Assembly: GCF_001550135.1 (NCBI RefSeq)
Contig: NZ_LRUE01000010.1
Location: 1-64,000 of the forward strand
DNA length: 64,000 nucleotides
Direction: 5' to 3'
Source: Pseudoalteromonas shioyasakiensis
Lineage (GTDB): Bacteria > Pseudomonadota > Gammaproteobacteria > Enterobacterales > Alteromonadaceae
Shown here: positions 2,158-18,717 of the stretch, one piece after another
How the letters are laid out: every line of letters starts with the position of its first letter
Position numbering within the stretch: position 1 is the stretch's first letter
Made by a program: the position numbers and the translations under genes
Notes under the pieces: model-generated
Told to the model about the DNA's origin: nothing
Database searches by the model: none
Seen by the model: the letters and a program-made list of their open reading frames with translations, nothing else

Positions 2158-2177
2158 GGACAATTATGAGTTAGGGC

Positions 2178-2191
2178 TAATGCGTGCATTA
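2178..2191. repeat. 14-bp palindrome beside the intron insertion site
   Basis: TAATGC-GT-GCATTA is a perfect inverted repeat lying 20 bp from the 5' exon/intron junction (2157/2158), within the 199 bp of gene-free DNA between the intron and the nuclease-like ORF. Several group II intron lineages prefer sites next to DNA hairpins, so it could be part of the target. A role in targeting is inference. Confidence 0.4.
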
Positions 2192-2356
2192 TGCCAAATC
2201 TGAGCCTTGATATAGCGAGGCAGATTTTCTATTTCTGATTTTCCAGAAACCATAATCATTATAAATAAACAGACAACCTTACAAGCTCAATTAAAATTTC
2301 CTCGTTGAATAGGTATCAATCATTTTGATCCTATGTGTACTATTACTTTAAGGAAA

Positions 2357-2818: not shown

Positions 2819-2943
2819 ATTGGAGCAGTAACTTAGGCTTGAATTTGTATTCGCACAAATATGACAAATCCCTTTTTTAAAGCTGTTGTGCTTTAGTGCA
2901 TAGTCGATATGGGGATGAGACAGGTTGCTTTGGTTGTTAATTG

Positions 2944-3552: not shown

Positions 3553-3731
3553 ATCATAACCATACTGTGGAATTGGTATTTATTCCAACGCTTTACCATC
3601 CGCTTTTCACTCTTTAGAGATATCTCAGCTTTGTGCCATTTTCGGTCTTTCGACTGTAATATTACATCTTAAAACTAATTGCGACTACAGATGTTCACCA
3701 TCTCATTTTTGATTAAACTTATCGTTGAGTA

Positions 3732-5702
3732 TTATTTTCTCTGCTGAGAATACCAATAGTTTTTATATGCCAAACTTCCCCACAATACATGAGCCAATGC
3801 GATCTCTGAAGTGTCACGGTTAATATCTATTGGCGATAGTTTGTTGAGTTCATAATTATATTGAAAGTTCAAAGGTGCTTTACTTGGCTGAAGGATGGTT
3901 ACTTCATCATTAACCATATAAGCAAAATTCTCTGCATACTGCATCATAGCTCTATTAGAAGCCGTTGGATCTGTTAGGTCTTGACCTAACATTGGTGAAA
4001 TATTCTCTATACCCATTAATGACAAAAGTGTTGGTGCTAAATCGATTTGACTGACTATTCGTTGATCTAAAGAGGGTCCTTTACCTGAGTTTAGAATCAC
4101 ACCCGGAATGTGGAAATTGTTAATGGGAACAAGATCTTTGCCCATTGCTCTCGCATCATGGTCGGCAACAACGAGGAATATAGTATTTTCCCAATAGTCT
4201 TGCGCTTTTGCTTTTGCAATAAATTGTCCTAAGGCATAATCTGCATATTGTATGGCTTTATGGCGCAGTAATTCTTTGTCATCATATTGTTGTAATTGTT
4301 CAGCAGTGTATTGAATTGGTGAAACAATACCATCAGGTATTTCAAATGGATCATGGTTACTTGACGTAAATATGAAACTAAAAAATGGTTTTCCTTCGTT
4401 ATGAAGCTTAGTTAATTCAATATCAGCTTGATTAAACAAATCACCATCGCTTGCCCCCCAAGACGCTACAAATTGTGGATTTTCAATATCATTAAAGTCA
4501 ACAATGTCAGTAAAGCCGTTTCCTAGAAAGAAGCTTTTCATGTTGTCGAAATGACTTTCTCCACCATAAATGAATTGAGCCTCATAACCATTTTCTTTGA
4601 GCAGAGATGCAATAGTAAAGAAGTCCTTTTGCGATTTATCTAACTTAACAACTGCCCTAGAGGGCGTTGGAGTAAAGCCAGTTATAACTGCTTCAATACC
4701 TCTAACGGAGCGAGTGCCTGTTGCGTACAATCGTTTAAATGCCCAGCCTTCTTGATTTAATTTATCAATTTCAGGTGTTAGCGGGATTCCACCAAGAGAT
4801 GATACATATTGGGCACCTAAGCTTTCTTCTAAGATTATTACCAAGTTTTTTGGTTGTCCCTTAAAGCTCGGAGAGCGTTTACTTAGAGTGGGTAAGTTGT
4901 TGTTTTTGAAGCTTTCTAAAGGTTGTTTTGACTCCTGACGAACCAGCTCAATAACTCTACTATCTTCCATATTGCCATACAACTTAGCTGCATTTTTTTC
5001 GTCACCAAATTGATTAAGTGCATAAGCAACACTATATGTTGAATTTAATGTCAGTGAGTTTACTAATGGATCAGTAGAAAAATATACTAAGGCAGGGTTG
5101 ATTGGTCTATGCCCCAATGTCCCCCGTGCAGATAAAGCAATTACTACAAAAAGCATCAAACAAGAAACCAGCCTACTTCCGATTGTTGCGTTATCTTCTT
5201 TTACTTTGTTAGAGACTACCTGATTAGTAAACTGCCATAACTTTTTAACAGGTAATAGCAGTAGAGCAAACACAATCAGTATTGTCATCAAATGACCATT
5301 TACCAGCATTTTAGACACTTCATCAGGATAAGCTAGATATTCAATAAATAGCCTGTTTGGTCTAAAGCCGTATTCATTTATAAATGCGGGCGTTGCTAAT
5401 TCAAAAAACAATATGCCCATAAAGCAGATCAGAAACCAAATTCGCAAAACCAATGACCAATACTCTTGAAATCTAGTTTTTGACACCCAAGGGTGCAATA
5501 ACGCAGGGATCGCGCATAAGTAACCTACGCTACTTAAGTCTATGCGAAAGCCATTTGTGAGTAGGCTCCAAATACTATTTAAGTCATTAAATCTATCTAA
5601 TTGCCAGATAGCCAACCCAGTTCGTACTAAGGTTAGGAATAGCATGACAGAAATAGAGAAGAGTAAGAATGGTCTAATAAAGCTGTAGATAGAAGTAAAC
5701 AT
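3732..5702 (-). CDS. LTA synthase family phosphoglycerol/phosphoethanolamine transferase-like membrane enzyme
   Basis: The 656-residue protein has about five N-terminal membrane helices (residues ~8-195) and a large periplasmic sulfatase-fold domain (~285-640). The metal and nucleophile positions of the LtaS/MdoB family are visible: Glu292 in VIILEES, Thr330 in ATGTRSVRG, and the metal-binding VADHDAR segment. In Gram-negative bacteria this family moves head groups from phospholipids to periplasmic glucans or other glycans and releases diacylglycerol; a teichoic acid role is not expected. It is the last gene of the envelope island and has its own CTTAAG-type box 48 bp upstream, so it can be transcribed alone. 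The acceptor cannot be read from the sequence. Confidence 0.85.
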   Translation of the reverse strand: MFTSIYSFIRPFLLFSISVMLFLTLVRTGLAIWQLDRFNDLNSIWSLLTNGFRIDLSSVGYLCAIPALLHPWVSKTRFQEYWSLVLRIWFLICFMGILFFELATPAFINEYGFRPNRLFIEYLAYPDEVSKMLVNGHLMTILIVFALLLLPVKKLWQFTNQVVSNKVKEDNATIGSRLVSCLMLFVVIALSARGTLGHRPINPALVYFSTDPLVNSLTLNSTYSVAYALNQFGDEKNAAKLYGNMEDSRVIELVRQESKQPLESFKNNNLPTLSKRSPSFKGQPKNLVIILEESLGAQYVSSLGGIPLTPEIDKLNQEGWAFKRLYATGTRSVRGIEAVITGFTPTPSRAVVKLDKSQKDFFTIASLLKENGYEAQFIYGGESHFDNMKSFFLGNGFTDIVDFNDIENPQFVASWGASDGDLFNQADIELTKLHNEGKPFFSFIFTSSNHDPFEIPDGIVSPIQYTAEQLQQYDDKELLRHKAIQYADYALGQFIAKAKAQDYWENTIFLVVADHDARAMGKDLVPINNFHIPGVILNSGKGPSLDQRIVSQIDLAPTLLSLMGIENISPMLGQDLTDPTASNRAMMQYAENFAYMVNDEVTILQPSKAPLNFQYNYELNKLSPIDINRDTSEIALAHVLWGSLAYKNYWYSQQRK

Positions 5703-5750
5703 CGCAATTCTTTTTGGTGAATAACACGATGTTTACTTTATTAGGTGAAA

Positions 5751-5776
5751 CTTAAGAATTACTTAATTAAAACTGA
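5751..5776 (-). promoter_or_regulatory. PmrA/QseB-like tandem box before the LTA-synthase-family gene (site A)
   Basis: On the plus strand the site reads CTTAAG-AATTA-CTTAAT, then TAAAACTGA. The two hexamers repeat every 11 bp, the spacing used by OmpR-family dimers. The box is 48 bp from the start codon at 5702 and matches sites B, C and D upstream of the other units of this island. Confidence 0.65.
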
Positions 5777-5786
5777 TAATTAGATA

Positions 5787-6545
5787 TTAATGTTGTTTTA
5801 AAGCTGGTCGCTGAGGTAGAAGTATAATCAAAACTATTATTACAAACAGTAGTGTCGCGGTAGCTGAATATCTACTCAATTCCAAACCGCCGTGCGCAAC
5901 AGGCTTGTCTAAAAAGTCACCTACAACAGCTCCTAGGGGGCGAGTCAAAACAAACGCAAGCCAGAATAGTACTGTTCTAGATACTTTAGTGAACAAGTAT
6001 AGGAACAATACAACTACTAGACCTGTACTGAAAATATATGCAGCTCCAATATAACCCAATCCAGCAGTATCAGCAGTCCAATCTCCCAGTGCAGTCCCAA
6101 GTGTTTGAGAAAACATAATAGTTAACCAGTAAAACGATTCTGCTTTAGGGTTGTCAATAGAAGAAACACTGATACTCCCAATTGTTCTATACCAAATAGC
6201 CAATGTAATAATTAAGAGAGTAGCTAATAGAGTTGAGCCTCCTAAATACCCAATTCCCAACGATCTATCGGCAAAATCAGCAAGTGTTGTCCCCACTGTC
6301 GTTGATGCAATAATAGTGATCCAATAAATAAACGGGCTAAATTTTGTAGATTTTACTTGCATAACAACAGCGGCAATAAAAAAGGACATAAAGATTACAG
6401 TTCCAACTAAATAGCCCAAATTCATTGACATTGAAACAGCATCACCACCTGTTTCACCTAACGTAGTCGCGAGTATTTTTATGATCCAAAACCCTATTGT
6501 TAATTGAGGTACTTTTATCAGTGCATCGTTTAATTGTTTATTCAT
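5787..6545 (-). CDS. COG4705-like integral membrane protein with four internal repeats
   Basis: The 252-residue protein is almost entirely hydrophobic. It contains four copies of a unit of the form (W/Y/F)-W/L-x-x-x-x-x-T-x-G-x-x-x-x-D followed by a glycine-rich G(L/I)GY-type stretch, beginning near residues 19, 74, 140 and 195. Each unit would span two membrane helices, so eight or so are expected. Proteins of this type are annotated only as uncharacterised membrane-anchored proteins. The start has a good AGAGGAA ribosome-binding site. It follows dgkA by 27 bp and probably shares its transcript with the Omp85-eptA-dgkA unit, which points to an envelope role, possibly transport or lipid handling. 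No function is established from the sequence. Confidence 0.75.
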   Translation of the reverse strand: MNKQLNDALIKVPQLTIGFWIIKILATTLGETGGDAVSMSMNLGYLVGTVIFMSFFIAAVVMQVKSTKFSPFIYWITIIASTTVGTTLADFADRSLGIGYLGGSTLLATLLIITLAIWYRTIGSISVSSIDNPKAESFYWLTIMFSQTLGTALGDWTADTAGLGYIGAAYIFSTGLVVVLFLYLFTKVSRTVLFWLAFVLTRPLGAVVGDFLDKPVAHGGLELSRYSATATLLFVIIVLIILLPQRPALKQH

Positions 6546-6572
6546 ATAAAATTCCTCTATGTAGGTATGTCA

Positions 6573-6938
6573 TTAAAAAAGAACTATCAACCAAATACAT
6601 ATGGCAATCACTATACTCACTAATACTGCGGCAGACCCTAAATCTTTCGCTAATCCAGACAGTGGGTGTATTTCGAAACCAATACGGTCAACGACTGCCT
6701 CTATTGCAGTATTTACTATCTCGGTAAACATAATAAACAGTACCGCAATGATAAGTATGAGTTTCTCTTTCAGTGTAATATTGAACAAGAAAGTTACTGG
6801 GATCGACAATACAAGCAACAGCAACTCTTGTCTGAATGCGGCTTCATTCCTTAGGAGCCACTTGAACGCTCTAGTTGAATTTAATGTTGCGAGATACACT
6901 CGTTTAAGACCTTTAGGTTTATTTTTACTATCAAACAC
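6573..6938 (-). CDS. dgkA: Diacylglycerol kinase DgkA
   Basis: This is a 121-residue prokaryotic DgkA with the expected size and three membrane helices. The surface helix NEAAFRQE and the active-site segment EIVNTAIEAVVDRIG followed by HPLSGLAKDLGSAAV are plain. The enzyme phosphorylates diacylglycerol to phosphatidic acid in the inner membrane. It starts at a GTG only 3 bp after the eptA stop, with AAGGAG inside the end of eptA, so the two are translationally linked. The logic is clear from known chemistry: EptA-type and MdoB-type enzymes leave diacylglycerol behind when they take the head group from a phospholipid, and DgkA recycles it. Confidence 0.95.
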   Translation of the reverse strand: MFDSKNKPKGLKRVYLATLNSTRAFKWLLRNEAAFRQELLLLVLSIPVTFLFNITLKEKLILIIAVLFIMFTEIVNTAIEAVVDRIGFEIHPLSGLAKDLGSAAVLVSIVIAICIWLIVLF

Positions 6939-6941
6939 GGA

Positions 6942-8624
6942 TTAGTTTACTCCTTGAAAAATTGTTGGCGACTTTGCATTTGCTACGGAAAGATCATTAG
7001 TACACTGACTAAAAGGGTTGTTTTCAGGTTGATAAACTTTTGACTTTACCTGCATTTCCGCAAGTAAAATATCGAATATGTTGTCATGGGATATAGGCTG
7101 TTCACTCATTCCATTCAAACAATCTAACTTGGCTTTGTGATGTAATAGATCTCCCCAGTAAATTAATGGCACTTTTGTTTGCTCTTCTGGTGCAAATGCA
7201 TAAGGTAGCCCATGTAAATAGACGCCACTTTCGCCTAAAGATTCGCCATGATCAGAGACATAAATCATTGATGTTTTGATATTGTTCTTATTGCTCAATG
7301 CCTCAAGTTCTGTGATGATTTCTGACAAGACTAAATCGGTATAAGCAATCGTGTTGTTGTAGGTATTAACAAGTTCCTCTTGACTACAATTTTGGATATC
7401 ACTGCGTTGACAGTCGGGAGAAAATACTCGTTTGTTTTTGGGGTAGCGTTTGTAGTAAGTTGGTCCGTGAGAGCCAATCATATGTAATACAATCAACGTA
7501 TTGTCGCTTTTTAACGAATATAGTTTATCTCTTAATGCTTCAACCAACACCTCATCAAAGCAATATTCACCATCACATAATGGCTTATTACTATTTGTTG
7601 AAATTTGCTCAGTTTTGACACGAGCGCAGACACCCTTACAGCTACCATTATTGTTACTAATCCAAAATACTTCAGCCCCAGCCAAATGAATTAAGTCAAT
7701 GGCGTTTTGTTGGGCTGTAGCCACTCGTTTTTCATAGTTTTCTTTGTTTAATCTAGAAAACATACAGGGAACTGATACTGCTGTTGCTGTGCCACAGGAG
7801 GTAACATCTTTAAATGAAACAACGCCTAAGTCTTTGGTTTGGCTATTGGTCGGCTTGTCATAACCATTTAGAGAAAAGTTTTGGGCGCGAGCTGTTTCAC
7901 CAAGCACCAAAACGGTAATGCTTTTAGTGTTGTTCGGACTAGAAATAGTTGGTGAAGTATCTAGTAAAGTAAACTTTAAAGGCGGATAGATATAATTTCT
8001 GTTTGCATATTTCACAGTAGAATCAATTAACGCATAGGGAGTTAAATAGCCGATCAAGTCACGGTTATTTCTTCCAATTGATGCATAGCTAGAATAAAAA
8101 ACGATTGTTATTAAAAAAATGGTTGCAAAACTACCAATGATTAACTTTGCTCTGGATAGCAACTCTCCCATAAAGGATGAATATGTGAGCTTTACTTTCG
8201 CAATCAGTATTGATGGCAGAATACCTAAGACAACAAAAAATACACAAGCAGAAAAATTAACATATGAAAGTGCTTCGGCTCTGTCAGTTTCAAATGTGTT
8301 TTGTATCATCCCATAATCAAAAACAATGCCGTAGGTCACTGTGCTATAAAAAACAAGGGAAGATGTTAGTACTAGTAGTATTAGTATAGGTTTAGTTATC
8401 CAGCGAAATGCAAAGAAACATTGAATGATGATCGATAATGACAGGAGAAATATTGGGACAGATAATAAAAAGAAAATATTATATTCACTAAGTGCCACTA
8501 TTGCAGAAGACGTTTTTAAAATAAACGGAGCGTTCAACACCAATGTTACATACGCACAAGTGAACATTACTAACTGATTGGTGGTTAGTGTGATATTTTT
8601 TAGAAAAACTAAAGCCTTGTTCAT
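6942..8624 (-). CDS. eptA: Lipid A phosphoethanolamine transferase (EptA/MCR type), copy 1
   Basis: The 560-residue protein has five N-terminal membrane helices (to about residue 180) and a periplasmic sulfatase-fold domain. Catalytic features align with EptA/MCR enzymes: Glu243 in LGETARAQNFSLNGY, the Thr281 nucleophile in SCGTATAVSVPCMFS, GSHGPTYYKRYP, and VSDHGESLGESGVYLHGLP with the metal-binding Asp-His. Cysteine pairs typical of the family are present. It transfers phosphoethanolamine from phosphatidylethanolamine to lipid A phosphates, lowering negative charge and giving resistance to cationic peptides. It lies 9 bp after the Omp85-like gene and 3 bp before dgkA, in a transcript controlled by site B. 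The acceptor (lipid A 1- or 4'-phosphate) is inferred from the family. Confidence 0.9.
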   Translation of the reverse strand: MNKALVFLKNITLTTNQLVMFTCAYVTLVLNAPFILKTSSAIVALSEYNIFFLLSVPIFLLSLSIIIQCFFAFRWITKPILILLVLTSSLVFYSTVTYGIVFDYGMIQNTFETDRAEALSYVNFSACVFFVVLGILPSILIAKVKLTYSSFMGELLSRAKLIIGSFATIFLITIVFYSSYASIGRNNRDLIGYLTPYALIDSTVKYANRNYIYPPLKFTLLDTSPTISSPNNTKSITVLVLGETARAQNFSLNGYDKPTNSQTKDLGVVSFKDVTSCGTATAVSVPCMFSRLNKENYEKRVATAQQNAIDLIHLAGAEVFWISNNNGSCKGVCARVKTEQISTNSNKPLCDGEYCFDEVLVEALRDKLYSLKSDNTLIVLHMIGSHGPTYYKRYPKNKRVFSPDCQRSDIQNCSQEELVNTYNNTIAYTDLVLSEIITELEALSNKNNIKTSMIYVSDHGESLGESGVYLHGLPYAFAPEEQTKVPLIYWGDLLHHKAKLDCLNGMSEQPISHDNIFDILLAEMQVKSKVYQPENNPFSQCTNDLSVANAKSPTIFQGVN

Positions 8625-8633
8625 TATTACACC

Positions 8634-10244
8634 TTAAAATGAATGCTTTGTAGTGATACGGAATTCGATACCATTGACGTTTTGATCTGAGGTCATTGGC
8701 TTGATGATATCTACATGTATTACGCGAGCTTCGCTGGTTTGCGTCGAATAAAATCGAGCGCCAATGCCTACGGAAGTCATCCACGAATCTTGGTTGGTGG
8801 TATTATCTGAACTACCGAAAACTCTGCCTGTATCGACAAAAATAGCTCCGCCTAACTCAAGTAATTTATAGATATTGATGTGAGGGTAATAACGAGCTTC
8901 AGCCGTAAATTGAGTGCTGTGATCGCCATGCCTGTATTGTAATGGATAACCCCGTAAGCCAGTTTCACCACCTAAGACAATAGGGTTGTCTTGAAATTGA
9001 TTCTCACTAAATTGACTGTTGTTTTTTAAATAGGCACCCCAGCTATCATTTAATTTATGAAAGTATTCATTATTGACGCTTAATACAGTTCTATTTGCAT
9101 TGTTGGAATCACTGTAAATTTCCCCATCTAAGGTTGCACTAATAAACCAAAAAGTATCATCAAATATTTCTATGCCTTTTGTTAAACTTGACTGCCAAAG
9201 TAATGTTGGTGAGGTATCTGTATTCCCGATATCAGTGCCAACCTGAGTTGTTAAATTCCACCCAAGGTTGAAGTCTTCTATATGATTTATCAGGTTGAGG
9301 TTAGATAGTTTTCTGAAGTCTTTTTGCAAATACTCAACACTTAGATAAGGGTATATAAACTCTCTATTAGAAGGTACGACAGAAATTAAATCGGGGTTTT
9401 GTATCTCATTAATTGCTGAAAATTCATGCTGTTCATTAGTAAAACCAATACCAAATCTTAATGTATCTTCATTGGAGTCATTTTTAAGCCATTGCCAGCT
9501 AGCTGTTGAGTAACGTTGATTGTGTTCAAATTGGTTGTAAGTTTTGCCAAGTTTGTATTGGGTATCTATTTGCCTAAAGTTGTCAAAGCCAATATTAAAT
9601 GCATTGTTGGTATCAAAACTTACAAAGTCTTTCTGTATGAATACAGATTCAGATGTGCCGTCGTCGCTGTTGGTTAGATTAACTTGCGCGTTAATATTAT
9701 TATTGAGGAATAATGGGAAATGAGTTTTAAATTTATATCCACTGCGTTGATCATTGGTAAACGATTCAAGCTCAGCGTCTATACCCAAGCCTAAGAAATT
9801 TCTGTCTTTGATACCAATAGCGTATTTATTCTTTCCCCCCTTACGGCCAAAATCTACTGTTGGCATTAGTGACCAGTTATCCCAAGTTTCAACTGTGATT
9901 TTGTCAGAGTTATCGTTTCGAGTTACTCGTGCATCTCTTATGTATTTTTTACTTCTGAGGTGGCGTTCCAGTTCTTCAAGATCTTCTTGGCTTACATCGC
10001 ACTTTTTTATGAAAAATGCAGCTTCATTGTACAGTGTTTTATTTTTGGTTTTGATATGAAAAAAGTTAGCCCAGCGATGGAGAAAAATAGTGTCTGGATC
10101 TTCTAAGTTAAAAATGTCGTAGGTCTTTAATTCTATTTTATCTTTTTGATTACAATTATCGTCAGTTGCATTCGCTGCTTGTGCTCTACAAGTTAAGAAA
10201 ATTATTGATGTTGCAAGTAGGTTGATAACAAAATGCTTTTTCAT
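8634..10244 (-). CDS. Omp85/TamA-like outer membrane beta-barrel protein
   Basis: The 536-residue protein has a signal peptide (cleavage near CRAQA|AN), one POTRA-like segment at about residues 85-120 (SQEDLEELERHLRSKKYIRDARV and following strand), and a C-terminal beta-barrel ending in F. The barrel holds GGETGLRGYP, equivalent to the conserved lid-loop motif of Omp85 proteins, and FVDTGRVFG near the end. With a single POTRA unit it is smaller than BamA or TamA. It opens the four-gene unit with eptA, dgkA and the COG4705-like gene, and has site B 43 bp upstream. The context suggests a role in outer-membrane assembly or lipid/LPS transport under envelope stress; its actual client is unknown. 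Confidence 0.75.
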   Translation of the reverse strand: MKKHFVINLLATSIIFLTCRAQAANATDDNCNQKDKIELKTYDIFNLEDPDTIFLHRWANFFHIKTKNKTLYNEAAFFIKKCDVSQEDLEELERHLRSKKYIRDARVTRNDNSDKITVETWDNWSLMPTVDFGRKGGKNKYAIGIKDRNFLGLGIDAELESFTNDQRSGYKFKTHFPLFLNNNINAQVNLTNSDDGTSESVFIQKDFVSFDTNNAFNIGFDNFRQIDTQYKLGKTYNQFEHNQRYSTASWQWLKNDSNEDTLRFGIGFTNEQHEFSAINEIQNPDLISVVPSNREFIYPYLSVEYLQKDFRKLSNLNLINHIEDFNLGWNLTTQVGTDIGNTDTSPTLLWQSSLTKGIEIFDDTFWFISATLDGEIYSDSNNANRTVLSVNNEYFHKLNDSWGAYLKNNSQFSENQFQDNPIVLGGETGLRGYPLQYRHGDHSTQFTAEARYYPHINIYKLLELGGAIFVDTGRVFGSSDNTTNQDSWMTSVGIGARFYSTQTSEARVIHVDIIKPMTSDQNVNGIEFRITTKHSF

Positions 10245-10287
10245 AAAGACACCTCTTCTGAGTATGACTTTATGGTAATTTTGTTAA

Positions 10288-10313
10288 CTTAAGATTTGCT
10301 TAGTTCAAACTGA
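10288..10313 (-). promoter_or_regulatory. PmrA/QseB-like tandem box before the Omp85-eptA unit (site B)
   Basis: The plus strand reads CTTAAG-ATTTG-CTTAGT, then TCAAACTGA, starting 43 bp upstream of the start codon at 10244. It shares the hexamer pair, 5-bp spacer and the AAACTGA tail with sites A and C. Confidence 0.7.
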
Positions 10314-10447
10314 TAAATAGCAAAGTGTTGCTATTTTTTGCTTAGAAAGGCTTTGCTATTATTGAATTACGGTAGTTAGTTTTAGAAGTTAATTAGAAAT
10401 GTAGTTTTTATCTTTTATTTGTAGGAAGGTTATGCCGATATTGCTTC

Positions 10448-11206
10448 TTAATGTTTCTCAATAGAACTTATAAGTAGTGTTGCGACTTCTTCTTCCTTGT
10501 GTTCTTGTAAAAGCATAATAGGAATATAGTCGTAATCAATTGCCAGCCAAATATGCGTCTTTCTAGTACTATTTTTTCTAATCCTGCTTAATTTTATGCA
10601 ATTAAGTTCCCCAAGAGGTGTGTCAATAGTAACTCGTCCACCATTCAGGAAGTTAAATTCTTTGAAGCCACTTGTATCATAAACGGTGTAATGCAATTGT
10701 TTTACATTAGAAAACCCATCGTTTTTCAGTGCGTCAAGCCTTAACATTTCAAACACAAATAGTGGGTCTAACACGTCATCTTTTAAGGTTTGTTCACTAA
10801 TTTCGCCATTCTTTTTAGCTATTAAAGTTTGGTTATTATGATCAAAATTTAACTGTAAATGTTTTTCTTTTTTAAAGGTTCTCGAATCTTTTCCTTTATA
10901 GCTCAGTAGCGCTACTTTATTGTCCTGCCATAGAAAAGTACTTGTCTCACTCGTATCTATGCTATAGAAAAAAATTGATGCGCTAGTATTGAATGATAAC
11001 GAATAAGAAGTGTTATTTTTACTTAGTGTTCTTGTGGCTCGACCATATTTTTTCTTGCCACGTAATACACTGTATTTCGCGGTATATAAATTCAATTCAG
11101 ATGTTTCTTCAGAACCACTTTTAATAAGAGGGGCAGCAGTTATTGGTAAGGCAAAATAAAGTATTACCAATATAATAATTTTAATAGCGCTGTTGTAGTT
11201 CAACAT
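10448..11206 (-). CDS. DUF3108 family periplasmic protein
   Basis: The 252-residue protein has an N-terminal signal sequence (hydrophobic to about residue 24, ITAA|P). The body has the DUF3108 pattern: a Y-x-V-x-(R/G)-G-x-x-x-G opening, a central DPLFVFEMLRLD, then TPLGELNCIKLSR and WLAIDYDYIPIML near the end. The family is a soluble beta-rich periplasmic fold of unknown function, often found near lipid or cell-wall genes. It begins 5 bp after the second eptA-like gene and is the third gene of the PAP2-eptA-DUF3108 unit under site C. I infer an accessory role in lipid A or phospholipid modification. Confidence 0.8.
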   Translation of the reverse strand: MLNYNSAIKIIILVILYFALPITAAPLIKSGSEETSELNLYTAKYSVLRGKKKYGRATRTLSKNNTSYSLSFNTSASIFFYSIDTSETSTFLWQDNKVALLSYKGKDSRTFKKEKHLQLNFDHNNQTLIAKKNGEISEQTLKDDVLDPLFVFEMLRLDALKNDGFSNVKQLHYTVYDTSGFKEFNFLNGGRVTIDTPLGELNCIKLSRIRKNSTRKTHIWLAIDYDYIPIMLLQEHKEEEVATLLISSIEKH

Positions 11207-11211
11207 AATTT

Positions 11212-12792
11212 CTAATGTTCACCAGAGTTATACAATACATCAAGCGTACTATCATATATTGATGACTCAAGGCTAAGCGCTCCTAAAACGGTATGAAAGA
11301 CATTAAACTGATTATGGCTATTAGCTTGATTTAAGTTTTTAAGCTTTAAATTTCTTGCATCTAAAAAAGTATCAGATGCCCAAAATAAAAATGGGATATC
11401 TTTTTGATAATCTGGTGCAAATGAATATGGTGTGCCATGCAAGTAAAGTCCATGCTCACCAAGTGACTCACCGTGATCAGAAATATACATCATTGCTGAT
11501 GAAGTTTTCGCTAAGGTTTGTAACTCCATTATCAGTGTCGTCAGGAAATGATCGGTATACAGCAGGGTATTATCGTAGGCATTAATCAATTCCTCCGGAC
11601 TACATTTGCTAATTTCTTCATCACGGCAGACAGGAGTGAATTGGTTAAATTCTTTTGTGTATCGTGAATAGTAGCTTGGTCCATGACTCCCTTTAGTATG
11701 CAAAACAACAAAGATCTTTTGTTTATCAGATGAATCGATAGCGTTAATTAAATTAGTCAGTAGTACTTCATCTAACTTACAGCCTTCACCCACGCAGTCA
11801 GCTCGTAATTCAACCGCCTCGGTATAACTTGTTGCTTTTATTGGTGGTTCACCCCAGTTATTGGTTCGCCACTGTACATCAACGCCATGTCGAGCTAAGT
11901 AAGTTGGTAATGCTTCAAAGTCTAAGTATTGATCACTAGGTGCTAAAATACATGCCAGAGAACCTGTGGTATAGGTAGTGCAGGATTTTGTATTGTTCAG
12001 CACTAGTAGATTAGACTGTTCTGCGAGCTTTGGGTTAGTTAATTTGGAATAGCCATACAATGAAAAATTGGCAGCACGAGCGGTTTCACCAATGACCAAT
12101 ACAAAGACTGTTTTATTGTTATTCAGAAAATGGCCATCTGGTAACGCTTTCTGTCCGTCAGTTGTTCTATTTATAGATGAGTAATATCTACCTGAATTTA
12201 TTATGTATGACCAAGGTAAAATCTTTCCGCCTAAAACGCTGGCATGCTTATCAATCCAAAGCCAACTAGTAGAATTCGTATACAAGAATGCACCAGAGAT
12301 TACTAAAGCAATTGACGCGTTACCTAATATTTTTACTCTATCAACTTGTTTAATTTTTATTAAGGCAACAAAACAAGCTGGCATTAACCCCAACATTATT
12401 ATCGGGAAAACTAAGCTTACGGTGAGTAGTTCAATAGATTCTGAATAGCGGGTGTTAAATATATTTCCCATCATGGTTCTATCTAGCACCACTTGATAGT
12501 TACTCATGTAATATATAGCGGAAGCATTTAAAACAGTGATGATTACGAGAAATATTTTCAGAACTGTTGGTGAAATAAACGCTAGCAATGAAAATATGGT
12601 GTATGAAAAGATAAATACTATCACAACAGTAGATAGTAATATTCCAATTCCGCTAGTGCTCCATACATTGGTGTTTTGATTAACATACTCTAACAGCACC
12701 AAATTGTAAGCAAACGTCATTACAATGCTCACCCAAAAAGTGAAGCTGCTTGCCTTCAAAATTGAAATTTTAGAAAGGGCTTTAGTGTTCAT
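11212..12792 (-). CDS. Phosphoethanolamine transferase (EptA-like), copy 2
   Basis: The 526-residue protein has the same layout as copy 1: five membrane helices, then a sulfatase-fold domain with Glu236 in VIGETARAANFSLYGY, a Thr nucleophile position (Thr275) in SCTTYTTGSLACIL, TKGSHGPSYYSRYT, and YISDHGESLGEHGLYLHGTP. The catalytic loop differs from the usual CGTATAVSVPCMF of copy 1, with Thr-Tyr-Thr-Thr-Gly and no Pro before the second Cys, hinting at a different acceptor. It overlaps the PAP2 gene by 11 bp and is followed 5 bp later by the DUF3108 gene, so the three are one operon. Alternative acceptors in this superfamily include LPS core heptose and periplasmic glucans. Confidence 0.88.
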   Translation of the reverse strand: MNTKALSKISILKASSFTFWVSIVMTFAYNLVLLEYVNQNTNVWSTSGIGILLSTVVIVFIFSYTIFSLLAFISPTVLKIFLVIITVLNASAIYYMSNYQVVLDRTMMGNIFNTRYSESIELLTVSLVFPIIMLGLMPACFVALIKIKQVDRVKILGNASIALVISGAFLYTNSTSWLWIDKHASVLGGKILPWSYIINSGRYYSSINRTTDGQKALPDGHFLNNNKTVFVLVIGETARAANFSLYGYSKLTNPKLAEQSNLLVLNNTKSCTTYTTGSLACILAPSDQYLDFEALPTYLARHGVDVQWRTNNWGEPPIKATSYTEAVELRADCVGEGCKLDEVLLTNLINAIDSSDKQKIFVVLHTKGSHGPSYYSRYTKEFNQFTPVCRDEEISKCSPEELINAYDNTLLYTDHFLTTLIMELQTLAKTSSAMMYISDHGESLGEHGLYLHGTPYSFAPDYQKDIPFLFWASDTFLDARNLKLKNLNQANSHNQFNVFHTVLGALSLESSIYDSTLDVLYNSGEH

Positions 12793-13636
12793 CTTGTAAT
12801 ATTGATTTTAATGTGATGTATGTACCAACAATAGCGCTGACTGAAATTGCTATCCAAATTATAGTTAGTTCAGGAAGCTTTCCACTGATAGTACATACTA
12901 AAAGGATGAAGCAAAATCCAAGGACAAAATATCCTAAAATAGCAGGCTTTACTTTTGCCCAATTCCACCATTTTGAATAATGTTTTGATAAGTATTCGCC
13001 ACTTAACCCTGAAACAGTGCCTATTATTGCTCCAAATGCTAAATCTGCGGGCCAATGAGCACCAACAGCGACTCTAGAAATGGCGACTACTGTAGCGACC
13101 ATAAGCGATAAATATATCCAATACGTTTTATGTTGCTCACTGATTTTAGCTTCTCTCAAAAGAACAAATACCATTGCAGAGATTGCTGTAAAAATCGTAA
13201 TAGTATGACCAGATGGAAAACTTGTATAAGCAGTCAGGGTTTCGCCAATAATAGTAAATTGCTGATGTTCTAAAACAGCAGCGGGTCTAGGAATGGCAAA
13301 GAAACTTTTACCTAAATGACTAAGTGCGCAAGCGAGAGGAACAGCTCCGAACATAGCTGCCCACATTCTCGTATTCACAAGGCAAATGAAGGAAAGCAGC
13401 GGAATTAGAATCAGAGCATCCCCCAAGTACGTAATATTGTGCCAAATTTCACTGGGTAGTATTTGCAGAGCATTGTTACTGAAAGAAAAGATATCTTTTT
13501 GGCTGGCGATATAGGCGTCTTTATTCAGTGCCATACTTACCATTATGGCACTCATTAAACATATAAAACTTATAAGTTTCCAAAATGGGAAATAGCCTTT
13601 AGAATATTGTTGACCAATTGTTAGCTTTACTGGCAT
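12782..13636 (-). CDS. PAP2-family membrane phosphatase (LpxE/LpxT/PgpB-like)
   Basis: The 284-residue protein has about six membrane helices and all three acid-phosphatase motifs: K110-x6-R117-P (KSFFAIPRP), PSGH at 141-144, and SR187-188-x5-H194-x3-D198 (SRVAVGAHWPAD). Enzymes of this type act at the periplasmic face on lipid phosphates: undecaprenyl pyrophosphate, phosphatidylglycerophosphate, or lipid A phosphates. Being the first gene of a unit with an EptA-like transferase, it may remove or move a lipid A phosphate before or alongside phosphoethanolamine addition. The substrate cannot be decided from motifs alone. Site C lies 42 bp upstream. Confidence 0.88.
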   Translation of the reverse strand: MPVKLTIGQQYSKGYFPFWKLISFICLMSAIMVSMALNKDAYIASQKDIFSFSNNALQILPSEIWHNITYLGDALILIPLLSFICLVNTRMWAAMFGAVPLACALSHLGKSFFAIPRPAAVLEHQQFTIIGETLTAYTSFPSGHTITIFTAISAMVFVLLREAKISEQHKTYWIYLSLMVATVVAISRVAVGAHWPADLAFGAIIGTVSGLSGEYLSKHYSKWWNWAKVKPAILGYFVLGFCFILLVCTISGKLPELTIIWIAISVSAIVGTYITLKSILQDEH

Positions 13637-13678
13637 AAAATCACCTCAATGTTGGTGATTACATGCTAAAAATTAAAA

Positions 13679-13704
13679 CTTAAGTTTTGCTTAGTTGAAA
13701 CTGA
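13679..13704 (-). promoter_or_regulatory. PmrA/QseB-like tandem box before the PAP2-eptA2 unit (site C)
   Basis: The plus strand reads CTTAAG-TTTTG-CTTAGT, then TGAAACTGA, 42 bp from the start codon at 13636. It differs from site B at only a few positions over 26 bp although the surrounding DNA is unrelated. Confidence 0.7.
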
Positions 13705-13738
13705 AACTTTAAATAAGATTGATTGAATGTTGCCTTAA

Positions 13739-15958
13739 TCAAAAATGAAGTCGAATTTTCGCAAATAGATTATGAGCATCTTTTGCATTTATTGATTGTT
13801 TATAAAGGTTTCTTTTTCCAAACTTCGCGAGATCGTCTTCAAATTCCCCACCAAAACTATAGCTGAGGTAAAGCGCGGTTAATTTACTTAAAGAATATTT
13901 ATAGCGAAGCTGGAAAGCACTTTCAGAAAATGAAAAATCATCTTGGTTTTTAGAGCCTATCAACTCACCCTGTCTATCAACGATGTATTGATTTAGGTGA
14001 TTTGCTTTCCCGATAACAGACTCAAGTTTAAAACGTACTTCCTGACTTTCACTAATTTGATAATCTACACTTAGTTCAATGCCTTGCTCTGTGAAGTTAA
14101 ATTCATCGACGGTATTACCGTCATCCCATTCAAGCCAACTATCACTATTGTATTGTGATACCGTTAGTCCAATGAGTAGTAGAGTACTAATCTGCTGCTC
14201 AATGCTCACTTCAGCGTTGTAAAAGTTACCAGTCAGGCCCTCCGTTCCCATCTCTAGTGCGACTCCAACACTTCCCCAGTCATATTCTGGAGAATTTAGT
14301 TCAAGTTCGGCTATATAAAAGGACGGTAGCCATACGGAATTATTCCCTCGCGTTAGTAAATCATCATATCCAGACGAACCCAACTCCAAAGAAAGTTGAT
14401 ATTCAAATTCTGTACTTGTCACCAATTCAACACCTGCACCAACAATACGAGGCAGTTTTTCATTTTGGTGGTTCTTTTTTAATTCAGTTTCAAACGCAAA
14501 TGTAACATCTCTTATCAACCATCTATCTAAATCTGGAATTTGAAATTGATATTCATATTCAAATTGCTTTCGATTGACTCGCTTGACATAGCCGATGTCA
14601 TTTAATTGTAAGTCGTCTCCATAGTTAAAAAGACTAAACTCATGACTATGCTGCTCGGATGGTTCTGTACTTCCTGTAAGCCACCAACCGAAGTCGCTCG
14701 TTGTTTCAGGCTCTTGTTCTATATCAGATCTGACTATGCCGAAATTTAGCTTAGTATTATCTGAGTATGCATAATTGAAATCAGACTCAATTATAATTGC
14801 CTTTCGCTCAATGCTGGGCGTATTAACCCTATTAATTGAAGCGCCAAACTTGTTAGCTCCTAATCGGTACTGCCCTCTTAATATCCAAAAATCTCTACCA
14901 AATTTCCCGCTATCGGCACTTTCAAATGCAGATAAAAGCCCAAAATCTAATTGTTCACTACTTATTGTGTATTTAATTGCAGAATCCAACTCACCTGAAT
15001 AGTCTTCATCATAATATGACTCCCCGCCAATTCTTGGCGTATGTACTACTCTGAGAGACTCTGGCCCGGAAACTTCAAATAAACTTTGATTATCATTGAA
15101 AAAAGGTCGTTTTTCTGAGAAAAAGCTTTCTATGGCTGAAAAATTAACAACTAACTCATCTGACTCAACCTGTCCAAAGTCAGGGTTTATGGTGGCACTT
15201 AATTGCTGACTTTTAGTAGGTTTCCAAAACAATTCAGCCCCTATATCAGTAGAGTTTTTGTTGTTCGCAATGTCTCGATTAGCCGAAATGTATGGAAAAA
15301 TATCTAGGCTCGACTGATTGTTAATTTCAACTTTTTGTTTGCTGAAATTTGTTAAAAAACTATTCATTGAAGCGTTTGCCGGAATTGATGAATAGGTTGC
15401 ATTAGTGGATTCATCAAAACGAGTAATAGAAAGGCCGAATTCATTCTGCTCTTGAATAGCAAAAGACATAGTAGTCCAAGGGATATAAATTTCAGCGTTC
15501 CATGAATTGGTAAACACTTTAGTTTTGAAGTACCACTGACTACTCCAATCTAAATCTAACTCTTTATTCTGCTTATAGATACCATCATAAAAATATCCTT
15601 GATGATTGACTGAAAATACATAACTTGTTTGTTCGGTATTATTCATATCTATCATTAATTGAATATGATCATTAGTGAAAAGCGTGTCGTTTTCTTGTGT
15701 CCTTACTCTCAATGGCGGCTTAGTCGTTGCCACAACACCTATGTATATGCCGCGGTCAGTTGTTATCACTTGATAAGAAAAGTTGCTCTCTACCTTTGTT
15801 AGCGTTTGTGGAACAACTTGATAATTAACAGTGTTTCGCTGCGCGCTTTGCCAACCTGAATCATTCAGGGAGCCATCAACGACAACTTCAGTTGCAAAGG
15901 CAATACTTGAAGCAAACAGATAAAGAAATAGTAAAGAACCGTTATAATGCTTTTTCAT
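13739..15958 (-). CDS. CBM9-like domain plus DUF5916 outer-membrane beta-barrel protein
   Basis: The 739-residue protein has a signal peptide (about 1-22), a carbohydrate-binding family 9-like domain (about 23-205, opening VVDGSLNDSGWQSA), and a long beta-barrel region of the DUF5916 type. The segment FSEKRPFFNDNQSLFEV is the family hallmark, and the chain ends in aromatic-x-F (KIRLHF), as outer-membrane barrels do. Function is not established for the family. Its ATG overlaps the histidine kinase stop by one base (TAATG), so it is the third gene of the regulator-kinase operon. That linkage is unusual and suggests it reports on, or responds to, the surface state sensed by the kinase. Confidence 0.8.
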   Translation of the reverse strand: MKKHYNGSLLFLYLFASSIAFATEVVVDGSLNDSGWQSAQRNTVNYQVVPQTLTKVESNFSYQVITTDRGIYIGVVATTKPPLRVRTQENDTLFTNDHIQLMIDMNNTEQTSYVFSVNHQGYFYDGIYKQNKELDLDWSSQWYFKTKVFTNSWNAEIYIPWTTMSFAIQEQNEFGLSITRFDESTNATYSSIPANASMNSFLTNFSKQKVEINNQSSLDIFPYISANRDIANNKNSTDIGAELFWKPTKSQQLSATINPDFGQVESDELVVNFSAIESFFSEKRPFFNDNQSLFEVSGPESLRVVHTPRIGGESYYDEDYSGELDSAIKYTISSEQLDFGLLSAFESADSGKFGRDFWILRGQYRLGANKFGASINRVNTPSIERKAIIIESDFNYAYSDNTKLNFGIVRSDIEQEPETTSDFGWWLTGSTEPSEQHSHEFSLFNYGDDLQLNDIGYVKRVNRKQFEYEYQFQIPDLDRWLIRDVTFAFETELKKNHQNEKLPRIVGAGVELVTSTEFEYQLSLELGSSGYDDLLTRGNNSVWLPSFYIAELELNSPEYDWGSVGVALEMGTEGLTGNFYNAEVSIEQQISTLLLIGLTVSQYNSDSWLEWDDGNTVDEFNFTEQGIELSVDYQISESQEVRFKLESVIGKANHLNQYIVDRQGELIGSKNQDDFSFSESAFQLRYKYSLSKLTALYLSYSFGGEFEDDLAKFGKRNLYKQSINAKDAHNLFAKIRLHF

Positions 15959-17376
15959 TACAGTGACACAGTAAATGTAATTTTCCTCTCAACTAACGAT
16001 ACTGAAACAGTTGCTCCAATTTTTTCACAATAGGATTTTACTATTGCTAAACCTAATCCAAATCGCTCTGTTGATGTTCTTGATTCGTCTTTTTGCCATA
16101 AAGGCTCAAAAAACAATTTAAGTTCATTTTCTTGATAGTTTTCGTAGCAGATATTTGAAATTTTGATTAAAGCATTTCTGTTATCAGTCTTTGCTGTTGT
16201 TATCTCTATTGCTGAATTAGTTGGACTATAAAAGATTGCATTGTTAATTAAATTTGATAACACAGTTTCTAAAGCAAATTTATTGGTTTCTACTATCAAT
16301 GATGGCAAATCGAAAAGAAGTATAATTTCTCTGTCATCTGAATTTTCTCTTGCGATAACATTACTAATCAGATCCGTTAGGTTAATTTCGTTAGTTTCTA
16401 ATTCATTGCTACTACTACTTTTTTGCAATAGCATGATGCTACTAACGATATTTTTTAAGCGATAGGATATTCCATGGACATCGCTTGCAAGGTTATCTGA
16501 TATTTCCTTTTCATGAGGAAACTTTAAGGCAACTTCGCTCAAACTTATAAGCTCTGCGATTGGTGTTTTTAATTCGTGAGCAATGTCAGAAGCCATCCTC
16601 TGCTCTCGAATGTACAGAATATGATTTTCTTTAATAAACTGATTAACGCCTTCAGCTATCGGAACGAGTTCTTGCGGTAAAAATTCTACTGAAACTTCCG
16701 GGTTTTTAGAGTTTAAACTTATTTTTCTTAGCTGCTGACTGAGTTGAGTTATTGGCTTTAAACTCCTATAAACAACAAGTTTGACAATTATTCTGATAAT
16801 AAATACAGAGAATATAGATGTGAAAATAAAGATAATATCAACAAACCAGAGGATATAGTCTAACTCTTCTCTACTTAGCGCATAGGCAAGTTCCATTGGT
16901 TGTTGATTTTTTGCAAATTCTTCTCTGCTTATACCGAGTGTTTCTCGAATGTCAGAGTCAACCTGAGGAAAAAATTTTGTATAAAGCATCCTGCCATTTC
17001 TGCCGTCTGGTAATACGGTATCTTGAATAATAAATTCATGTAGTTTTGCATCTAGTCGAGAGAGATCTTTTATTTCAAAAAACTCTAGAGTGTCCGATCT
17101 CTCAAATACTTCGCTTTTGTGCCAAAGTTGGTAATATTCAGGGTTTTCTTTGCCTTCAAATTCCGGCATAAACTCCCCAGCAAAATCAAATTCTATTCCG
17201 TCCTCATCTTCTTCAACTAATGTTTCAAGTAGCCCAACCTTGTTGACCATGGCTCGGTCAAACTCATCACTTATCCATGTATCAACACTGATATCAGTTG
17301 CTAATAAGATACAAATTAAAAGTAATGAAATTGAAATTGATAGATAGCGACTTAGCTTTTTATGAATTGAATTCAT
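15958..17376 (-). CDS. Two-component sensor histidine kinase (PmrB/QseC-like)
   Basis: The 472-residue kinase has TM1 (about 11-28), a periplasmic domain (29-174), TM2 (175-200), a HAMP-like linker, a dimerisation helix with phospho-acceptor His267 (ASDIAHELKTP), and an ATPase domain (LSNLINNAIFYSP; GLGLAIVKSYCEKIG). The periplasmic domain is striking: residues 51-80 contain 13 Asp/Glu. Acidic patches of this kind bind divalent cations or cationic peptides in PhoQ, and acidic ExxE motifs bind Fe(III) in PmrB. The start overlaps the regulator stop as TAATG. I infer that it senses cationic peptides or metals and controls the surrounding lipid-modifying genes. Confidence 0.9.
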   Translation of the reverse strand: MNSIHKKLSRYLSISISLLLICILLATDISVDTWISDEFDRAMVNKVGLLETLVEEDEDGIEFDFAGEFMPEFEGKENPEYYQLWHKSEVFERSDTLEFFEIKDLSRLDAKLHEFIIQDTVLPDGRNGRMLYTKFFPQVDSDIRETLGISREEFAKNQQPMELAYALSREELDYILWFVDIIFIFTSIFSVFIIRIIVKLVVYRSLKPITQLSQQLRKISLNSKNPEVSVEFLPQELVPIAEGVNQFIKENHILYIREQRMASDIAHELKTPIAELISLSEVALKFPHEKEISDNLASDVHGISYRLKNIVSSIMLLQKSSSSNELETNEINLTDLISNVIARENSDDREIILLFDLPSLIVETNKFALETVLSNLINNAIFYSPTNSAIEITTAKTDNRNALIKISNICYENYQENELKLFFEPLWQKDESRTSTERFGLGLAIVKSYCEKIGATVSVSLVERKITFTVSL

Positions 17377-18050
17377 TAATGACTCTCAACGAAGTAACCA
17401 AAGCCACGCTTAGTTTTAATTGGAAGCTCGTAACCAATAGCTCTTACTTTTTTCCGAGCAGAAGAAAGGTGAGCCTCTATAGAATTTTTTGCAATTGCAT
17501 CATATTGTCCGGCGAGGTATTCGCTAAGCTTTTCAGAAGAAATGACTTTTCCTTGATTGGAGAATAAGCACTCAACCACTTTGTATTCATTAGGGGTTAG
17601 CTGAGCATCTTTACCACCACATCTTAATTGTTTTAAATGTAAATCTAGCGATATAGAACCAATGTTAATACTGTTAGCGTTCATATTCAAAGTACCTCGC
17701 CGCATTAAACAGAGTAAACGGACATGCAGCTCGTCAAAAGAAAAAGGTTTAGTAAGGTAGTCATCTGCACCGTTGAGAAGCCCTTCAACTTTATCTTCTG
17801 TAAGGTCTTTCGCAGACAAAATTAATACACGGATATCTTTACCTGCATTACGGATTGCTTTCAGTATTGAAGTACCATCGACAGAGGGGAGCATTAAGTC
17901 GAGAATTAGTAGTGAATAATCTCCAGACAAAGCCATGCTTAGCCCCTCAGAACCATCACCAGTATCATCCACGGTGAAACCGAGGTTGGTTAATCCTACC
18001 CTTAAACTTCGTCTAAGTGATATTGAATCTTCGATAACTAAAACTTTCAA
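17376..18050 (-). CDS. OmpR-family response regulator (PmrA/QseB-like)
   Basis: The 224-residue protein has a receiver domain with Asp51 as the phosphorylation site (LLILDLMLPSVDG), the usual acidic pair at residues 7-8 and the Lys of TKPFSFDEL. A winged-helix DNA-binding domain follows (LTPNEYKVVECLFSNQGKV ... KNSIEAHLSSARKK). It begins at a TTG with AAAGG about 10 nt upstream; no ATG is available in frame. Its promoter carries three hexamers with 11-bp period (site D), consistent with autoregulation. It is the natural candidate for binding sites A-D. It is one base coupled to the kinase. Confidence 0.92.
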   Translation of the reverse strand: MKVLVIEDSISLRRSLRVGLTNLGFTVDDTGDGSEGLSMALSGDYSLLILDLMLPSVDGTSILKAIRNAGKDIRVLILSAKDLTEDKVEGLLNGADDYLTKPFSFDELHVRLLCLMRRGTLNMNANSINIGSISLDLHLKQLRCGGKDAQLTPNEYKVVECLFSNQGKVISSEKLSEYLAGQYDAIAKNSIEAHLSSARKKVRAIGYELPIKTKRGFGYFVESH

Positions 18051-18095
18051 TGATGCATGCCTTTGAGTAAATATTATTCAGAATATCGCTTTAAA

Positions 18096-18123
18096 CTTAA
18101 GAGTAGCTGAATTTACACTTAAT
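18096..18123 (-). promoter_or_regulatory. Triple PmrA/QseB-like box before the regulator gene (site D)
   Basis: The plus strand reads CTTAAG-AGTAG-CTGAAT-TTACA-CTTAAT: three hexamers exactly 11 bp apart, starting 45 bp upstream of the regulator start. The position relative to the gene matches sites A-C, which supports autoregulation by the encoded OmpR-family protein. Confidence 0.65.
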
Positions 18124-18717
18124 TTATGTCAAAGCTATTTCGTTAAAGCTCTAGCTTTCCCTCTAAGTTTTCAGATTCTTTTTGTGAAAAATCAATTTTA
18201 AATCACAAATTAGAGTATTTAAGTTAACTGAACATGGGGAAATAAGAGGCTTAATGTCCGTTTTGTAGATATATTGATACAACTCAAACATAAAATCAGT
18301 GTCTCAAATTCGCTCAAAGCCGACCTATAGAGTATTTACGTTAACCCATTATGGGGCATTTTTGAGTTAAGAGACAGCGCAAAAAAGGCAGGTTTTTGAT
18401 TAATCCAAACTGAGCTTTGTATTACCTCCAGTACTTGATATTTTAATTATGATTCATCTGTAGCTTTGAGGTAAATATACAGGTATCACGCCTTATCAGA
18501 AAACCCCAAATATCGACATTTCCCTCCACCCTAAAACCCTTGCCAGACAAGACTTTCTATTCCAATCTTGTCAGAAACCATTCCAGTTTTGGAACAGAAA
18601 GAACACTTTCCTCTGTTTTTGATATAAATAATCCGCAATATGACAATAGTCATAATTCTGTCATCTAACTGATCAATAATTGACGCTAATTTAATCACCT
18701 AACGTAATGAAGAAGTA
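18124..18717. other. Intergenic region without a gene
   Basis: About 590 bp between the divergent regulator operon and the 158-residue ORF. It is AT-rich. An inverted repeat GACAAGA / TCTTGTC lies near 18546-18572 and a shorter TTCCA-GTTT-TGGAA near 18584-18597; either could be an operator or the remains of a terminator. No ORF with coding character or RNA gene was recognised. Confidence 0.5.

Follow-up and report, generated by a model that had tools for sequence, protein, structure and literature searches.

Three-part boxes precede four predicted envelope-remodelling operons of Pseudoalteromonas shioyasakiensis and are likely read by a PmrA-like regulator

Results

An island of four transcription units, each under a phased box

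The DNA analysed here is a 64,000-nucleotide stretch from Pseudoalteromonas shioyasakiensis (GTDB lineage Bacteria; Pseudomonadota; Gammaproteobacteria; Enterobacterales; Alteromonadaceae), corresponding to positions 1 to 64,000 of the forward strand of contig NZ_LRUE01000010.1 in RefSeq assembly GCF_001550135.1. We refer to this whole stretch as the window. Towards its left end lies an island of genes, all on the minus strand, that form four apparent transcription units (TU A to TU D) and include a PmrA-like response regulator. Each unit is preceded by a repeated box (sites A to D). The boxes, the predicted -10 hexamers and the genes are as follows.

Site A, 5751..5778, minus strand: half-site 3 CTTAAG 5751-5756, half-site 2 ATTAAG 5762-5767, half-site 1 TATCAG 5773-5778
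Predicted -10 TAAAGT at site A, 5735..5740, minus strand: 10 bp downstream of CTTAAG, columns T16, A17 and T21 conserved
Site B, 10288..10315, minus strand: half-site 3 CTTAAG 10288-10293, half-site 2 ACTAAG 10299-10304, half-site 1 TATCAG 10310-10315
Predicted -10 TACCAT at site B, 10272..10277, minus strand
Site C, 13679..13706, minus strand: half-site 3 CTTAAG 13679-13684, half-site 2 ACTAAG 13690-13695, half-site 1 TTTCAG 13701-13706
Predicted -10 TAGCAT at site C, 13663..13668, minus strand
Site D, 18096..18123, minus strand: half-site 3 CTTAAG 18096-18101, half-site 2 ATTCAG 18107-18112, half-site 1 ATTAAG 18118-18123; order swapped relative to A to C
Predicted -10 TATTCT at site D, 18080..18085, minus strand
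TU A, 3732..5702, minus strand: LtaS/OpgB-type membrane phosphotransferase (PF00884); best solved relative VP1736 (3LXQ, 'uncharacterized protein VP1736')
TU B gene 1, 8634..10244, minus strand: BamA-like protein, predicted outer membrane (TIGR03303, 29 bits against a cut-off of 297)
TU B gene 2, 6942..8624, minus strand: EptA1, lipid A phosphoethanolamine transferase (NF028537; 37% identical to E. coli EptA)
TU B gene 3, 6573..6938, minus strand: DgkA, diacylglycerol kinase (PF01219)
TU B gene 4, 5787..6545, minus strand: DUF347 protein
TU C gene 1, 12782..13636, minus strand: PAP2 phosphatase, LpxE-like (PF01569 and three PAP2 motifs)
TU C gene 2, 11212..12792, minus strand: EptA2 (NF007160), 11-bp overlap with the PAP2 gene
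TU C gene 3, 10448..11206, minus strand: DUF3108 protein
TU D gene 1, 17376..18050, minus strand: OmpR/PhoB-family response regulator, PmrA-like, TTG start
TU D gene 2, 15958..17376, minus strand: sensor histidine kinase
TU D gene 3, 13739..15958, minus strand: DUF5916/CBM9-like protein

An earlier, sequence-only reading had reported a 17-bp pattern, CTTAAG-N5-CTTARY, before all four units. Exact copies are found at 5751, 10288 and 13679, and the copy at 18096 has one mismatch (CTTAAG-N5-CTGAAT) because site D reads CTTAAG-N5-CTGAAT-N5-CTTAAT. The reported spacings of 48, 43, 42 and 45 bp are correct for starts at 5702, 10244, 13636 and 18050, the last being a TTG, and the regulator gene does lie in the island under its own triple box, site D. 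Since all island genes are on the minus strand, the boxes are to be read in reverse complement. Sites A to C then take the form TWTCAG-N5-AYTAAG-N5-CTTAAG, and site D the form ATTAAG-N5-ATTCAG-N5-CTTAAG, so each site consists of three 6-bp half-sites. The proposed 11-bp period is confirmed and extends from two half-sites to three. An AAACTGA tail had been noted at sites A to C; it is present there and absent at site D, and it is in fact the third half-site (TCAG), because the reverse-complement reading puts it in the same 11-bp period. Weak traces of half-sites beyond three are also seen at the window's own sites.

A -10-like hexamer, TANNNT, starts 10 bases below CTTAAG at all four island sites. 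This conserved hexamer replaced our first guess, a -10 placed 15 bp below CTTAAG. With it, the place of the -35 element, read by eye, falls on the last bases of half-site 2 and on the gap that follows it, where the letters are AGTAAT (A), AGCAAA (B), AGCAAA (C) and AGCTAC (D); by eye, no TTGACA-like -35 was seen at sites A to D. From the spacing, half-site 1 would be located near -50. The two-half-site operator of the sequence-only reading is thereby amended to three half-sites that cover the place of a -35.

The box is rare in the genome and marks two further loci

We scanned the whole 4.8-Mb genome (G000; its contigs are given as C numbers) with the triple pattern TMAGN6YTMAGN5CTTAAG, using as control the reversed pattern, which contains a different palindrome than the pattern itself. 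There are exactly six exact matches, namely the four island sites, C5:379962 and C17:459621. A genome-wide scan with the 17-bp pattern, which had been suggested as a check, gives five exact matches, three in the island, one at a BamA-like paralogue on C5 and one, unassigned, at C17:30438, compared with one for its reversed control. With two mismatches the triple pattern is found at 123 places and its reversed control at 35, which leaves loose matches of little value; the signal resides in exact or near-exact sites. Half-sites 2 and 3 together have 20 exact matches in this genome. TANNNT stands in the -10 register in 6/6 of those that belong to triple sites and in 1/14 of the others, the single case being on C8 within an open reading frame (ORF).

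With the two matches outside the island, the proposed regulon extends to loci on C5 and C17. The C5 site precedes a BamA-like paralogue 31% identical to that of the island, and the C17 site precedes a second regulator-kinase pair, whose regulator is 68% identical to the island regulator. At the C17 locus a paralogous phosphotransferase gene is divergent, under a one-mismatch site. The second regulator lies under a triple site of its own, and its recognition helix has the residues of the island regulator (KNSIEAHLSSARKKV); with the same helix and the same box in both, the two circuits may be cross-wired.

Two further observations concern these loci. The C17 locus (L036, 5570-11772) is a second, paralogous module in which DgkA, EptA and phosphotransferase genes are divergent from the regulator-kinase pair, and the intergenic region between the two sides contains boxes that overlap. 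At the C5 locus (L037), the triple box at 9962-9987 is letter-identical in four other genomes (G001, G012, G025 and G086) and has one change in G006; the same BamA-like gene follows it in the four checked (G012, G025, G086 and G006).

Conservation of the box with its regulator

A scan of named genomes, covering the best 80 of 413 relatives, yielded 23 loci (L140 to L162) with a regulator 82-97% identical to that of the island. They come from Pseudoalteromonas, Colwellia, Cognaticolwellia, Pseudocolwellia, Thalassotalea, Marisediminitalea, Paraglaciecola, Psychrosphaera and Planctobacterium, with some metagenome-assembled genomes. None of the 23 is without a triple site, and together they carry 55. 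In the nine named genera, the box stands before orthologous transcription units. We took the 260-bp upstream regions of 59 units, chosen by gene alone, and found an exact site on the coding strand in 50 of them; the other strand gave none, and the expectation from order-1 shuffles was 0.0. Using CTTAAG as the sole anchor, we counted columns in the 43 regions with exactly one CTTAAG and room around it. In all 28 target promoters of this set, T-20, A-18 and G-17, T-9, A-8 and A-7, and T16, A17 and T21 are invariant, and the 15 regulator promoters share the same -10 (T16, A17, T21).

Scanning the 14 genomes behind the named loci gave 47 exact triple matches, 43 of them within 15 kb of the island regulator by coordinates. 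Of the remaining four, two are at the second module of Planctobacterium and two, which make up one palindromic place, are elsewhere. The palindromic box is at C12:204033-204060 of G099 (Cognaticolwellia aestuarii, the genome of L155).

The arrangement extends to more distant regulators. A triple site with an in-register -10 faces the regulator at all ten loci where that protein is 67-70% identical (nine Pseudoalteromonas and the second copy of Planctobacterium). At ten loci with regulators at 60-64%, half-sites 2 and 3 with an in-register -10 are present in nine, and the tenth contig stops inside EptA. Both loci from other families of the order carry a triple site, and L090 has an in-register -10 as well. 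Kept at these loci and in other families, the operator arrangement looks older than the island. As a separate observation, intergenic regions of L073 and L075 to L078 contain CTTAAG runs at 11-bp steps that can be read on either strand; a pair of divergent promoters may thus be served by a single array.

Site and regulator also occur together within the genus. We searched 48 same-genus genomes for both regulator and pattern and 12 more for the pattern only. The triple site is present in 11/11 genomes whose regulator is at least 68% identical, in 1/8 with only a 60-64% relative (G032) and in 1/29 with no regulator or a 41% one (G045); Fisher's test of 11/11 against 1/29 gives p = 5e-9, and no triple site occurs at 56 control loci whose regulators are 36-47% identical. 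No module gene was found in the 3-kb locus of the lone G032 match. Four of the 12 pattern-only genomes carry a triple site, and the regulator adjoins it in all three checked (G082 lay outside that check). The reversed pattern is found in 0/60 genomes. Chance similarity of the boxes is thus rejected by the genome scans, the 60-genome scan and the shuffles of upstream regions.

Arrays and half-site order

Array length and half-site order were analysed in promoters picked by the exact triple pattern, which permits TCAG or TAAG at both places; promoters that do not match it fall outside these counts. From 33 targets we retained 26 promoters whose pairwise identity does not exceed 72% and in which the half-sites are kept. 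Extra in-register half-sites (at least 3 of 4 letters) are present at -33 in 18/26 and at -44 in 13/26, TCAG itself occurring at -44 in eight, while out-of-register positions average 2.3 and reach at most 11. This in-register excess implies that some promoters carry five half-sites, with TCAG and TAAG alternating. In 16 regulator promoters there is no excess of extra half-sites (4/16 at each of -33 and -44; out-of-register maximum 6). The order of half-sites separates the two classes: half-site 2 is TAAG in 33/33 targets and TCAG in 18/18 regulator promoters. The two orders, TAAG-TCAG at the regulator's own promoter and TCAG-TAAG at targets, may set different strengths.

Comparison with PmrA and related systems

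The regulator has a PF00072 receiver and a PF00486 winged-helix output domain and is of the OmpR/PhoB type. A resemblance of the boxes to PmrA/QseB sites had been proposed. The PmrA half of this stands as a likeness, and the regulator scores far below the curated cut-offs for both proteins. QseB is rejected as an assignment (PRK10336, 141 bits against a cut-off of 345). We therefore call the regulator PmrA-like by resemblance; the curated test places it outside the PmrA equivalog.

Published descriptions give the PmrA box two CTTAAG/YTTAAK-like half-sites, arranged head-to-tail at N5 spacing (PMC3973317, PMC10927774). Half-sites 2 and 3 of sites A to C have two such YTTAAK-like half-sites with a 5-bp gap, and site D deviates with TTCAG. 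The boxes here are not limited to two half-sites, since the third phased half-site (marked by T-20, A-18 and G-17) is present in 28/28 single-CTTAAG targets. In E. coli K-12, arnB reads CTTAAG-N5-GTTAAT-N10-TAAAAT with AATATT at the place of half-site 1, and eptA reads CTTAAG-N5-CTTAAT with AACCTT there. The PmrA (BasR) regulon and the present system thus share an OmpR/PhoB-family regulator tied to eptA and an equal distance to the arnB -10; eptA, regulator and kinase are consecutive in relatives, as in E. coli eptA-basR-basS. They differ in that there are three phased half-sites here, up to five in relatives, instead of two, in the presence of a TCAG half-site, in the length of the sensor (472 here against 363 residues), and in the extra genes found here (LpxE-like, VP1736-like, BamA-like, DUF5916, DUF3108 and DUF347).

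Other systems resemble the island in gene content. ColS-ColR and RaxH-RaxR are likewise two-component pairs tied to lpxE-eptA genes with overlapping ends, and in Xanthomonas the overlapping lpxE-eptA genes adjoin RaxRH (PMC8306577). In H. pylori, LpxE takes off the 1-phosphate before EptA attaches phosphoethanolamine (PMC8306577); the LpxE-like PAP2 gene here also overlaps an EptA gene, a likeness of description and not of compared sequences. By eye, no conserved ExxE metal motif was found in 17 aligned sensors of the present type, which we set against ColR/ColS by description only. In Vibrio, DgkA recycles the diacylglycerol made by EptA and is needed with it, and the marine eptA-dgkA pair is under a two-component system (RstAB/CarRS) (PMC12064563). 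The island has a larger gene content than that system, and the comparison concerns genes, not operators. Among the literature matches listed, as titles and abstract openings, there is no description of this regulon or of a three-half-site PmrA-type operator, which is not proof of its being unpublished.

Predicted functions of the island genes

NF028537 and NF007160 are curated lipid A phosphoethanolamine transferase models. EptA1 scores 567.8 bits on NF028537 (cut-off 500) and lies below the stricter EptA equivalog cut-off (501 against 660). EptA2 scores just above the cut-off of NF007160 (567.3 against 561 bits), a PRK09598-type EptA model that we take to be Helicobacter-type, and below that of NF028537 (443 against 500). 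Its nearest solved relative is 5FGN, presumably the Neisseria enzyme. The PAP2 protein carries KX6RP, PSGH and SRX5HX3D, which we take to be the three PAP2 family motifs. Its best match in a search of the PDB is LpxE (6EBU, E 3.6e-12, against 4.8e-5 for the PgpB-like 5JKI), and its best NCBIfam match, SepP, reaches 47 bits, far under the cut-off of 250. No Pfam or PDB match was obtained for the BamA-like protein (8634..10244). In the sensor kinase two hydrophobic stretches, recognised by eye, enclose what would be a periplasmic domain of some 145 residues. This periplasmic part contains an acidic stretch conserved in the 17 aligned kinases, which reads FDFAGEFMPEF in the window's kinase (15958-17376). 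The predicted output of the regulon is masking of lipid A charge.

Mobility of the island

GC content is 36.1% in 2944-18200 and 42.2% in 18700-64000. The right junction is at 18568: from there on the sequence matches a close relative (G012) at 94%, and window 1-18567 has no alignable segment in the 18.5 kb of G012 used for the comparison. In a tree of regulators the island type forms one clade (support 99/93; 26 rows, two of which repeat named genomes) that mixes three families. In G019 and G009, none of the genes that flank the island on its right in the window was found in the 10-11 kb ahead of the regulator. The island was likely transferred horizontally, and the lipid A remodelling regulon has probably passed, operators included, from one marine family to another. 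On the left, the boundary of the island was not located, the contig beginning at window position 1, and no tRNA gene was found in window 1-30000. Adjoining the island at the left edge of the contig is a group II intron (Rfam RF00029, RF02012; 4-2109, minus strand) with a reverse transcriptase/maturase ORF at 117-1745.

Discussion

Sites A to D are three-half-site repeats that are likely bound by the island's PmrA-like regulator, which would thereby activate four operons with a predicted role in outer-membrane remodelling, a reading to which we assign a probability of about 0.82. That these sites would form a single regulon read by this regulator, as had been proposed, is strongly supported by comparison, through the orthologous units under the box, the co-occurrence with the regulator in Pseudoalteromonas and the rarity elsewhere in the 14 further genomes. 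In the proposed mechanism, the sensor kinase would phosphorylate the regulator, and regulator dimers or higher oligomers would align head-to-tail on one face of the DNA, roughly from -50 to -23. The bound tract would cover the place of the -35, and RNA polymerase would be recruited. The LpxE-like phosphatase and EptA2 would then swap the lipid A 1-phosphate for phosphoethanolamine, while EptA1 would add phosphoethanolamine and DgkA would recycle the diacylglycerol by-product. The VP1736-like phosphotransferase and the BamA-like protein may change other parts of the envelope, and site D would provide autoregulation.

Several results weigh against this reading. Activation is deduced from where the box lies. 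When two mismatches are allowed, the 17-bp pattern is not enriched within the window (30 found against 25.9 expected), and the reversed control has one match in the 14 genomes behind the named loci. Nine of the 59 upstream regions lack the exact pattern. Six are regulator promoters (L140, L150, L154, L158, L161 and L162): L158 is without any CTTAAG, and the other five have CTTAAG with neighbouring half-sites one base off or altered. Two more precede EptA1 of L145 and L161, where sites are located further upstream, and the last is the Sulf region of L151. Regulators at 60-64% have only a loose half-site 1, ending in AG, in 9/9 cases, and the triple site at L089, in another family, is without an in-register -10. 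The Fisher p of 5e-9 for 11/11 against 1/29 is overstated because related sequences are not independent. The 56 control loci with regulators 36-47% identical, which hold no triple site in 1.07 Mb, are mostly GC-rich (59.8% overall), only 15 being below 50% GC; these 15 (0.29 Mb) also hold none. As for the likeness to PmrA, the regulator scores 164 bits on the PmrA equivalog PRK10643 against a cut-off of 330, yet this is the best of 86 families matched; it is 35% identical to E. coli BasR, and E. coli eptA, with GAGCAT and not TANNNT in the -10 register, matches less well than arnB.

The core regulator on C17, the second of the two, could instead be the main reader of these boxes, the island being a set of transferred targets plugged into a resident circuit with its own regulator redundant. 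This is suggested by the core regulator's own triple site and its identical recognition helix, by the box at the distant BamA-like target, and by Pseudoalteromonas with only the core (C17-type) regulator that still carry triple sites (G001, G006, G012 and G025, for example). We consider it unlikely all the same, because 43/47 triple sites in the 14 genomes are at the island regulator locus and Planctobacterium is alone among them in having triple sites at another known module, and because the swapped form of site D, shared by all exact regulator promoters, suggests a circuit tuned to the island regulator itself.

Likely activation by the island regulator must also be set against repression, in which a tract bound over the -35 region and spacer would block RNA polymerase until a signal relieves it. 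The box does cover the -35 region and runs on into the spacer, stopping 10 bp short of the -10. By eye, sites A to D show no TTGACA-like -35 to be blocked, however, and their register equals that of the PmrA box at E. coli arnB, a promoter that is activated, as PhoB/PmrA-type boxes in this position are; repression is accordingly very improbable. That the boxes are alike through recent promoter duplication inside the island, rather than selection by one protein, would fit the 24/26 letters of the triple box shared by sites B and C and the TCAGTTT common to sites A to C. We rejected local duplication, to which we give hardly any weight, since it is contradicted by the cross-species comparison: half-sites persist amid divergence in the 26 target promoters, a set chosen by the exact pattern, and sites at core regulator loci and in other families have different spacers.

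Taken more broadly, the data allow a tentative model, one we would not yet favour, in which a PmrA-type regulator may polymerise along 11-bp half-sites, three to five in number, in which TCAG and TAAG serve as the two letters of a code. Their order would tell its own promoter (TAAG-TCAG-TTAAG) from its targets (TCAG-TAAG-TTAAG), and the package of regulator and operators would be mobile among marine genera, with operators that can be shared with a resident paralogue.

With a defined operator, a suggestive motif becomes a testable regulon. The conserved third half-site, the arrays of up to five and the swapped autoregulatory order make up a natural promoter series for the study of cooperation and promoter strength in the OmpR family. 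One genome holds two paralogous two-component systems with, apparently, a common operator, which offers a direct case in which to test cross-talk.

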